DNA from: Candidatus Poribacteria bacterium
GTDB lineage: Bacteria > Poribacteria > WGA-4E > GCA-2687025
DNA: 64,000 nt
Direction of reading: 5' to 3'
NCBI GenBank assembly: GCA_018644665.1
Contig: JABGQA010000084.1
Coordinates: 1-64,000, forward strand
The notes under the pieces were generated by a model. The model did no database searches and was not told the origin of the DNA. It saw only the letters and a list, made by a program, of their open reading frames with translations. A program made the translations under genes and the position numbers. Below are positions 47,586-50,632 of this stretch, piece after piece (the first letter of the stretch is position 1; every line of letters starts with the position of its first letter).

Positions 47586-49211
47586 TCAGCCGTCCGACCA
47601 TTCCCACTTCGTTCCCTCGCGCGTATCCAGAAGCTGCACGCCGGCCTGCGCGAGCGCATCGCGAAGCGCGTCCGCCGTGTCCCACTCCCGACGTTCGCGC
47701 GCTTCGACGCGCAACGTAGCGACGAGGTCCACGATTGCCGAGCACGCCTCGGCCTCATCAACGCCCGCCTCTAACTCCCACCCGCTGCCGTCACGCCCGT
47801 CCTGCAACGTGACTCCTGAAGCGCCAAGAGCGTCTCGCACGCGATCGGCCTGCTCCCATTCTTTGGCCTCGCGTGCCTGGTGCCTCAGGACTACTGCCAC
47901 GCTCACCAGGCCGCTCAGCCTGTCGGAGTCGCCAGCCGGATCCCCGGCGCGGATGCCGAGCACGGCACCCATCACGTCATCCAGGAAGGCTGCCGCGGTT
48001 GCCATCGCACGCCGCGCGTCGTCTGTCGGCTCGGCGTTCTCGTCAACGAAGCGGTTCGCCGCGTGCGTGAACTCAAACAGCACGCCGAGACCGCCAGCGA
48101 AGTTGAAGTCATCGTCCACGAGCGCGATGAACCTGGCCGCGGCCGCCTCGGTCGTCGCGACCAACTCAACGGCGGCCGCGTCGGCGAGCGGCTCGCCGCC
48201 TTTCGCTGGCGCCGCGTCGTCCGCGCCCGCTGCGAGTGCGTCCACGCAGCGGTTCAGCCGTCTGGCAGACGCGACGTTCTCGGCGATCGCCTCCGGCGTG
48301 TAATCGAGCGGCTTGCGATAATGTGTCGACAGGTAGAACAGCCGGATGGCTTCAGTTGGGTACTGTGCGACCGCATCGCGCACAGTGATGAAGTTGCCCA
48401 GCGACTTGCCCATCTTCTCGCCGCCCACGCGCAGAAGCGCCCCGTGCAACCAATAGCGTGCAAATGGCACGCCCGTAGCCTTTTCGCTCTGCGCTATCTC
48501 GTTTTCGTGGTGCGGGAAGATAAGGTCGGCGCCGCCGGCGTGGATGTCCGCGGTCGTCCCGAAGTACTTCATGACCATGGCCGAGCACTCGATATGCCAA
48601 CCCGGCCGGCCGCGCCCCCACGGACTGTCCCACCACGGCTCGCCTATCTTGGCGCGCTTCCACAGCGCGAAGTCACGCGGGTCACGTTTCTCCTCGTCCA
48701 CATCGATGCGCGCGCTCACCCGGACATCGTCCGCCGAACGGTTCGACAGCTTGCCGTATTCGTCGAACGACTCCACTCGATAGTACACGCCGCTCGACGT
48801 CTCGTACGCGGCATCGCCGTCCATCAACTGTGTGATGAGTGACTGCATCTCCGGCACGGTTTCCGTCGCTCGCGGGGCGACATCCGGGGGAAGCACCCCG
48901 AGCCCGGCCATGTCCTCCGCGTATTCGCCGGCGTATTTGGCCGCCCACTCGAGCGCGTCTGCGTCGTTCTCCTGCGCGCGCTGGATTATCTTGTCGTCGA
49001 TGTCGGTGACATTCTGCGCGAACGTCACGTCGTACCCACGGTGTGTGAGGTACCTGCGAATGACGTCGAAAGTGACGAACGTACGGGCGTTGTGGATGCC
49101 CTGGTAGTCGTAAACCGTGGGCCCACAGCAGTACATGTTCACCTTCCCGGGGGTGAGAGGTACGAAGTCCTCCATCCGCCGAGTCAGTGTGTTGTGTACC
49201 CGTATCGCCAT
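47586..49211 (-). CDS. cysS: Cysteinyl-tRNA synthetase with scrambled HIGH motif
   Basis: 541 residues, longer than the ~460 of E. coli. The class Ia fold is clear: RVHNTLTRRMEDF start, NVTDIDDKIIQRAQEN, WHIECSAM and LIFPHHENEIAQSE with zinc ligands. Where relatives have HIGH/HIGN in PTVYDxxHIGNART, this reads PTVYDYQGIHNART (Gly38-Ile-His-Asn), and the KMSKS loop is KMGKS (about residues 267-271). The C-terminus has two similar ~45-residue segments (REAKEWEQADRVRDALG and ARERREWDTADALRDALA). It charges tRNA-Cys. Ten bases follow the ispF stop; GGGGAAG precedes the ATG. Confidence 0.93.
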   Translation of the reverse strand: MAIRVHNTLTRRMEDFVPLTPGKVNMYCCGPTVYDYQGIHNARTFVTFDVIRRYLTHRGYDVTFAQNVTDIDDKIIQRAQENDADALEWAAKYAGEYAEDMAGLGVLPPDVAPRATETVPEMQSLITQLMDGDAAYETSSGVYYRVESFDEYGKLSNRSADDVRVSARIDVDEEKRDPRDFALWKRAKIGEPWWDSPWGRGRPGWHIECSAMVMKYFGTTADIHAGGADLIFPHHENEIAQSEKATGVPFARYWLHGALLRVGGEKMGKSLGNFITVRDAVAQYPTEAIRLFYLSTHYRKPLDYTPEAIAENVASARRLNRCVDALAAGADDAAPAKGGEPLADAAAVELVATTEAAAARFIALVDDDFNFAGGLGVLFEFTHAANRFVDENAEPTDDARRAMATAAAFLDDVMGAVLGIRAGDPAGDSDRLSGLVSVAVVLRHQAREAKEWEQADRVRDALGASGVTLQDGRDGSGWELEAGVDEAEACSAIVDLVATLRVEARERREWDTADALRDALAQAGVQLLDTREGTKWEWSDG

Positions 49212-49221
49212 GTGACTTCCC

Positions 49222-49734
49222 CTACGCCACGTCGCGCTGATATAGCGTCGCGATCGCCGTCGCCTCGATCGCTTGTCCCGTGCCGACGGGCCCGACGCCT
49301 TCGCCTGTCTTGGCCTTCACGTTGACGCGCCGTTCTGGGATTCCCAACGCCGTCGCCAACCGCGCCCGCATGTTGGGAATGTGCGGAGCCATCTTTGGGC
49401 TCTCCGCGTGGATGGTGCTGTCGACGTTGACGATCGCGTGATCGACCTCGACGAGCGCCCTCACGCGTCGCAGGAGCCCAATGCTGTCGGCGTCTGCGTA
49501 CGTCGGGTCGGTATCAGGGAAGTGCGTTCCGATGTCCCCCAAACCCGCCGCGCCGAGTAGCGCGTCACAGATCGCGTGCGCGAGGGCGTCCGCGTCAGAA
49601 TGCCCGGCGAGCCCGTGGGAGTGCGGCACATCCACCCCGCCGAGCACCAGCCGTTTGCCCTCCACAAGCCGATGGCTATCATAGCCCAGGCCTGTACGGA
49701 TTGCTAACAGTTGACCGTCGCTGAGAACGCTCAC
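49222..49734 (-). CDS. ispF: 2-C-methyl-D-erythritol 2,4-cyclodiphosphate synthase
   Basis: 170 residues from a GTG that overlaps the ispD stop (GTGA). The longer open frame upstream is antisense or out-of-frame with ispD and is not used. RTGLGYDSHRLVEGK (metal Asp-x-His), GLAGHSDADALAHAICDAL, FPDTDPTYADADSI and NVKAKTGEGVGPVGTGQ are the IspF signatures. Fifth step of the MEP isoprenoid pathway, forming the cyclodiphosphate. Confidence 0.95.
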   Translation of the reverse strand: MSVLSDGQLLAIRTGLGYDSHRLVEGKRLVLGGVDVPHSHGLAGHSDADALAHAICDALLGAAGLGDIGTHFPDTDPTYADADSIGLLRRVRALVEVDHAIVNVDSTIHAESPKMAPHIPNMRARLATALGIPERRVNVKAKTGEGVGPVGTGQAIEATAIATLYQRDVA

Positions 49735-50462
49735 GATGTCGCGCTTTCTCTGTCCCGCGAGAGTAAGTACTCCGCCATGGGGAGGTCGTCTGGCGTAGTG
49801 ACTTTGATGTTCCGCGCGTCCCCCAAGACGAGTTGCACGGGCCGGCCGACGCGCTCGATTAGGGACGCGTCGTCCGTCGCACTGATGCCTTCGCTCCGCG
49901 CCCGGAGGTGCGCGTCGAGAAGCAGGTCGAGGCGGAACGCCTGAGGGGTCTGGATGCTCCAGAGCCACTCCCGGTCGACGCTGCCGGCCACGCGGTGCTC
50001 GCCGTCGCCGCGCTTGAGCGTGTCGGTGACCGGCACGGCGACCGTCGCGGCGCCGACCTGCCGCGCCGCATCCAACGTCATGCGCACCATGGCGCTCGTT
50101 ACCAGCGGCCGAGCGCCATCGTGGATAACCACGAAGCGCGCGGAGTCGCGGCACGCGAGGAGGCCGCGGAACACCGACTCCTGCCTGGAGCTTCCCCCGG
50201 CGACGACTGTCACCGCCTCGGCTAAGCCGTATGGCGTCACCACGTCCGCGGCGCACGCATCCACATCGCCCGGCGCCACGACCAGGAACACGCGATCGAC
50301 CCGGGGCGACGCCAGGAGGCCCCGCAACGTATGGACGATCAACGGGTGGCCCGCCAGGGGTGTGTACGTCTTGCCGACCGCGCCGCCGCCCATGCGCGTG
50401 CCGCTCCCCGCAGCCGGGACTACCGCCACTGCGGGAGATGGCGTCATGTCGGAAGGCGGCAT
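49731..50462 (-). CDS. ispD: 2-C-methyl-D-erythritol 4-phosphate cytidylyltransferase
   Basis: 243 residues from the ATG at 50462; ATG 50447 and an upstream GTG at 50501 are alternatives. VVPAAGSGTRMG is the nucleotide-binding loop, VVIHDGARPLVT binds metal, and PVTDTLKRG and SIQTPQAFRLDLL complete the substrate site. Transfers CMP to methylerythritol phosphate in the MEP pathway. Coupled to ispF by a four-base overlap. Confidence 0.95.
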   Translation of the reverse strand: MPPSDMTPSPAVAVVPAAGSGTRMGGGAVGKTYTPLAGHPLIVHTLRGLLASPRVDRVFLVVAPGDVDACAADVVTPYGLAEAVTVVAGGSSRQESVFRGLLACRDSARFVVIHDGARPLVTSAMVRMTLDAARQVGAATVAVPVTDTLKRGDGEHRVAGSVDREWLWSIQTPQAFRLDLLLDAHLRARSEGISATDDASLIERVGRPVQLVLGDARNIKVTTPDDLPMAEYLLSRDRESATS

Positions 50463-50632
50463 ATGTCTGCCATCCCGGTGGGACATATTGAGGTTGGACA
50501 CCGGAGGATCATACGCGCGGCCGCTACGCGACGCATCACTCGCCCAAGGTCCCTGCTTGCGGCTACATTGGGGGAGACCGCGCGGCCAAGCCGGCGCGCC
50601 GCTTCGCGCGTAGCGGAGTCAGAGGGCGTCAC

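Follow-up and report, generated by a model that had tools for sequence, protein, structure and literature searches.

A gene for a cysteinyl-tRNA synthetase (CysRS), cysS, lies in the window, by which we mean the whole stretch of 64,000 nucleotides that was analysed. It stands directly behind ispD and ispF, in the order ispD-ispF-cysS. These genes, and the features of cysS that are discussed below, are as follows.

47586..49211, minus strand: cysS, cysteinyl-tRNA synthetase, 541 amino acids, ATG start, TGA stop
47598..47756, minus strand: second copy of the CysS_C domain, residues 486-538, not found in other poribacterial families
47772..47930, minus strand: first CysS_C domain, residues 428-480, helix-helix-strand-strand
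48402..48416, minus strand: KMGKS, residues 266-270, a variant of KMSKS
48441..48443, minus strand: Gly257, private to the family, on the strand before KMSKS and, by comparison with IleRS, near the adenine pocket; a putative compensating change
48498..48512, minus strand: HHENE, His234 to Glu238, with His234 and Glu238 invariant in a 36-sequence alignment
48585..48587, minus strand: Cys209, invariant in the same 36-sequence alignment
49089..49100, minus strand: GIHN, residues 38-41, where HIGN is expected (class I HIGH signature, swapped)
49125..49127, minus strand: Cys29, equivalent to E. coli Cys28
49222..49704, minus strand: ispF (YgbB family), directly upstream of cysS
49731..50501, minus strand: ispD, upstream of ispF

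A CysRS with an exchanged HIGH signature

Few catalytic motifs in biology are as highly conserved as the HIGH signature. The product of the window cysS (CCGPTVYDYQGIHNARTF) scored 517 bits with the cysS model TIGR00435 (cut-off 340) and 410 bits with Pfam tRNA-synt_1e (PF01406), and it carries catalytic, DALR and CysS_C domains. In place of the canonical signature, H-x-G-[HN], it reads GIHN: the codons GGC ATC CAC AAC at 49100-49089 encode G38-I39-H40-N41. The flanking sequences CGPTVYDY and NARTF were not shifted, so that no indel is involved and the exchange is exact. In alignments with the three best solved CysRS, His and Gly were found at the matching places of the signature. The rearrangement of HIGH to GIHN, as read in the initial annotation, was thus confirmed by the translation, by the codons and by five genomes of the family. 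Because GIHN does not conform to H-x-G-[HN], we class the protein as a CysRS homologue whose signature is non-canonical, and do not count it among the canonical CysRS.

The protein resembles canonical bacterial CysRS (TIGR00435; 1li5, 1u0b, 8qhp) in its fold, zinc site, catalytic domain, DALR and CysS_C domains, and in the tRNA-Cys(GCA) of the genome. It differs from them in having GIHN for HIGN/HIGH, KMGKS (a trait of the phylum), a second CysS_C domain and the family-private residues W89, T138, S140, G257, V365, F371 and R421.

Distribution of the GIHN signature

The family of the window genome (G000) makes up its whole order in the genome set used and comprised six genomes, which are fragmented drafts of 61 to 95% completeness. 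All five CysRS found there, in five genomes of four genera, had GIHN; the sixth genome (G001, 64% complete) gave no CysRS match. The signature is therefore clade-wide, and relatives with the normal HIGN, which the initial annotation had named as a possible objection, were found only outside the family.

The search across the phylum covered 84 Poribacteria genomes, 79 of which gave a CysRS match, and all 79 genes were examined. The motif was GIHN in 5, HIGN in 39, HMGN in 33 and HLGN in 1, with one gene truncated before the motif; HxGN was thus present in all 73 readable CysRS of Poribacteria outside the family.

The signature was also sought outside the phylum. The best 80 of the 92 CysRS found in IMG/VR all had H-x-G-[HN], and a single-protein locus search found no relatives in viral contigs. 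When 84,980 species, a set that may omit the window genome, were scanned at the DNA level with a degenerate pattern for GxH[NH] (G-x-T-x-Y-[DNSG]-x-x-G-x-H-[NH]-[AG]-R, the residue ahead of Y being partly constrained; divergent flanks would escape it), three contigs matched, all from Poribacteria and all belonging to family genomes (G002, G003 and G004).

As a separate observation, several large IMG/VR contigs, 400 to 600 kb in length (L301, L302, L304, L308, L309 and others), possibly from huge phages, carried a full-length CysRS with canonical signatures.

KMSKS signature, zinc site and C-terminal domains

The initial annotation had set a second change, KMSKS to KMGKS, beside the first. The change is real, but it is not a special feature of this enzyme, since [KR]MG was found at the KMSKS site in 71 of the 74 other poribacterial CysRS as well as in all five of the family. 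Being phylum-wide, KMGKS is not tied to the GIHN swap and was ruled out as part of the remodelling of the active site.

The zinc site had been described as conserved, and this held. Cys29, Cys209, His234 and Glu238, which we take to be the zinc ligands, were intact, could be matched to E. coli CysRS and were invariant among 36 sequences.

The second CysS_C profile stretch was detected in all five GIHN enzymes. In the AF2 model described below, the helix-helix-strand-strand arrangement appears twice, at residues 428-480 and 486-538. With a cruder residue pattern, two copies of CysS_C were seen in four of the five family CysRS and at most one in the other 74. Only the five family CysRS among the 79 were longer than 515 residues. 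The duplicated domain probably strengthens or alters the contact with the anticodon arm.

Comparison with IleRS2

The same kind of exchange has been described in IleRS. In Brkic et al. 2023 (PMC10485003), some IleRS2 are reported to have a G/AXHH motif, in which residues one and three of the signature have traded places; these enzymes are active, and their resistance to mupirocin is up to 1000-fold higher. When the swap was put into two canonical IleRS2, kcat went down by up to about tenfold and the mupirocin Ki went up by about 200- to 400-fold; when a natural ALHH IleRS2 was restored to the canonical motif, the Ki dropped 823-fold (PMC10485003). Crystal structures in the same work place the imidazole nitrogen of the third His at the position usual for the first. 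In IleRS1, where Phe586 stacks on the adenine, the swap abolished activity, since the adenine was pushed out of place by the third His (PMC10485003). According to that work, only IleRS2 has adopted the swap; its main text contains neither "CysRS" nor "cysteinyl". No CysRS with a swapped signature was found in searches of an open-access library.

The GIHN CysRS shares several features with the G/AXHH enzymes: Gly is first and His third in the signature (G38 and H40 in all five family CysRS), it is a class Ia synthetase, it can be the sole housekeeping enzyme and it has a canonical ancestor. Unlike them, it is a CysRS, and its fourth residue is Asn41 instead of His. Asn is the usual fourth residue in canonical poribacterial CysRS too. 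For this reason we regard the GIHN CysRS as resembling the swapped-signature group and do not file it as G/AXHH proper. The two cases also differ in their spread: the IleRS2 swap is widespread and goes back to two or more origins, whereas in CysRS it appears to have arisen once and is confined to one family.

Structure model and a possible mechanism

An AF2 model of the window CysRS built on 36 sequences had a mean pLDDT of 91.7, and of about 94 to 96 near the motif (on four sequences the mean was 58.7). The best fold match was the CysRS 8qhp (Z 52.2, rmsd 1.9 over 410), and the E. coli CysRS-tRNA complex 1u0b matched with Z 51.3; by these matches the model has the CysRS fold. A helix of residues 39-57 starts at the GIHN motif.

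Nine amino acid states, G38, H40, W89, T138, S140, G257, V365, F371 and R421, were private to the five GIHN enzymes, none of them occurring in 74 further poribacterial or 32 IMG/VR CysRS. In our own alignment, the context of G257, WLHGAL, corresponds to the HG[F/L] segment of IleRS, which would be the segment that holds Phe586 in IleRS1. As judged from these sequences, G257 is the leading candidate for a compensatory change.

We propose that the GIHN enzyme is the working housekeeping CysRS of this family of Poribacteria, which are marine bacteria, that it uses His40, and that with it the swap extends to a second kind of class I synthetase; we consider this probable. His40, which lies two residues deeper in helix alpha-1, would put its imidazole at the usual place of the first His and would there stabilise the ATP transition state, taking over the phosphate contact of the missing His. 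Gly38 would fill the vacated place and leave room, while a shift of the helix tip would keep His40 from pushing the adenine away, perhaps with the help of family-private changes such as Gly257. An enzyme of this kind should still make Cys-AMP and Cys-tRNA(Cys). Adenylate-mimicking inhibitors would be expected to fit it badly, likely as a side effect and, hypothetically, as the reason for fixation of the swap. Since the swap kills IleRS1 (PMC10485003), its tolerance by CysRS is not automatic.

The GIHN CysRS looks like a second, independent appearance of the IleRS2-type swap, in a different enzyme. As a natural case, it suggests that rewiring of the class I active site is open to more than one enzyme, and it allows a clear-cut test of a general replacement of the first His by the third. 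It also points to a possible CysRS-directed natural antibiotic. For annotation it is a caution, because failure of the HIGH motif would be insufficient for calling a synthetase inactive.

Origin and cause of the exchange

In a midpoint-rooted maximum-likelihood tree of 78 CysRS, from which the one truncated poribacterial CysRS was left out, the five GIHN sequences lay on one side of a branch with a support of 100/100. After the family members, the next best matches of the window CysRS were those of the neighbouring family f2. The sequences fit one emergence of the swap in the family's common ancestor. A horizontal acquisition of the gene from another phylum appears unlikely in view of the tree and the matches to f2.

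Across the five family genomes, the codons of the motif varied synonymously (GGC/GGG, ATC/ATT/ATA and AAC/AAT). Between the window cysS and its orthologue in the same genus, dS was 0.80 and dN was 0.078 (Nei-Gojobori), a dN/dS of about 0.1. The low dN relative to dS, together with the synonymous differences in the motif, indicates purifying selection on the protein, GIHN included.

The swap might have been fixed neutrally or nearly so, with an active site that tolerated it, after a local exchange of repeated ATC units or a few point changes had produced GIH. Three of the five family sequences read ATC GG[CG] AT[CTA] CAC and a HIGN relative (L030) reads ATC CAC ATC GGT, so that exchange of a six-base unit, (ATC CAC)(ATC GGC) to (ATC GGC)(ATC CAC), would suffice. 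Because such an exchange could have happened in one step, drift is also possible, and one origin in the tree fits it. The residue preceding the motif, however, differs, the nearest relatives (f2) having Phe there and the genus of the window having Gln, and four base substitutions would yield the same outcome as the exchange of units. The rarity of the swap is also hard to square with neutrality. We regard neutral fixation as a serious possibility, somewhat short of probable.

The swap in a working enzyme might instead have been fixed as target-side resistance to a natural inhibitor of CysRS that mimics the adenylate, as in the mupirocin-hyper-resistant IleRS2. That precedent makes the explanation attractive: the same exchange shifts the mupirocin Ki of IleRS2 roughly 200 to 800-fold (PMC10485003). 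The IleRS of Poribacteria are themselves of the swapped type, with GVHH in 74 of 75 readable motifs and TIAH in one (76 of the 79 places from the phylum search were examined, among them L138-L212; L213 is masked there). The IleRS of the window genome (L123:647-3859, G000:C52) reads KPGVHH; among the NCBIfam models, MupB and MupA score highest but stay below their cut-offs, and ileS, next in rank, exceeds its own. The swap in IleRS is phylum-wide, however, and that in CysRS is limited to one family, so that the two do not track each other. Among other class I synthetases, which were read in G000, G002, G003 and G005, the readable LeuRS, ValRS, MetRS and TrpRS retained the first His and the Gly, save for a second LeuRS in G000. 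A search of an open-access library gave no natural CysRS inhibitor, only a designed mimic, cysteinyl-AMS, and a transcriptome table. To our knowledge there is no antibiotic against CysRS, unlike the case of IleRS2. Resistance appears rather doubtful to us as the cause. A wider version, for which we see a slightly smaller chance, holds that the signature swap is a general and repeatedly reachable escape of class I synthetases from adenylate-mimicking antibiotics, and that GIHN marks an undescribed natural marine inhibitor of CysRS to which the family would be hyper-resistant through its only CysRS.

Search for other routes to Cys-tRNA

In each of the five genomes, exactly one match to the cysS family was over the cut-off. 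The remaining cysS matches, of at most 39.1 bits, fell either within this one gene, in its second domain, or for the most part in long frames taken as other class I synthetases; the CysRS search gave a further match at C145. No match over the curated cut-off was found for either SepRS or SepCysS in the six family genomes. The five weak SepRS matches that were scanned turned out to be pheS or pheS-like (PheRS alpha), one of them in a frame also reading as a sigma factor, and the three weak SepCysS matches scanned were SufS-type or cysteine desulfurase-like.

These searches led us to reject a second CysRS, as only the window-type gene was over the cut-off in each of the five genomes, and likewise the indirect route through SepRS and SepCysS. 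Given drafts that are 61-95% complete, a second CysRS missed in all five would be unlikely, though possible. The initial annotation, which had offered either a remodelled active site or a second enzyme, is thus supported in part: remodelling is favoured by the clade-wide conservation and by the IleRS2 precedent (PMC10485003), while the second enzyme and the special status of KMGKS are not upheld.

A pattern search found tRNA-Cys(GCA) ending in U-CCA in G000, G001, G002, G004 and G005, and thus with U before CCA in four of the five GIHN genomes. The same pattern gave no tRNA-Cys for G003 or for two (G020 and G077) of the four genomes from other families. The tRNA-Cys of the GIHN family (f1) and of the HIGN family f2 were nearly identical. 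Both have the GCA anticodon and U before CCA, and we therefore rejected an altered tRNA-Cys.

The protein might no longer make Cys-tRNA and might serve another role, as an MshC-like ligase or a cysteine persulfide synthase, with tRNA-Cys charged otherwise. Such a loss would be in line with the first His being worth about 1000-fold in activation in several class I enzymes (PMC10485003). We consider it very improbable. The window protein, which is over the cysS cut-off, scored 251 bits with the model of the mycothiol cysteine ligase MshC (TIGR03447), far below the cut-off of 485. It shares catalytic-domain homology and fold with MshC but, unlike MshC, has tRNA-binding C-terminal domains, and its anticodon-binding domain is not only kept but even duplicated. 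No alternative charging route was found in the family genomes by the searches for cysS, SepRS and SepCysS, and tRNA-Cys is normal. An error of sequencing or assembly, an option raised in the initial annotation, can be dismissed with near certainty, since nothing but the rarity of the motif favours it and five independent assemblies share GIHN with synonymously different codons.

Other synthetase genes

Poribacterial IleRS were of two types, and the divergent one, found in f5/f6 and about 40% identical, also had GVHH. The IleRS with TIAH in place of HIGH (L177, G083:C267) has Thr as the first and Ala as the third residue. The second LeuRS of G000 (L121:1426-4002, G000:C132), which is over the leuS_bact cut-off, reads SVGH; the other LeuRS of this genome (L119) is canonical, with HMGH. 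In G002 (C347, L102:1492-2769), one frame encodes what looks like a sigma-70 factor with the C-terminal portion of PheRS alpha behind it, either a chimera or an assembly artefact. ArgRS had GPLTLGHGR, with Thr for the first His of HIGH, in all three readable cases (L221, L222 and L223, from G000, G005 and G003, respectively).
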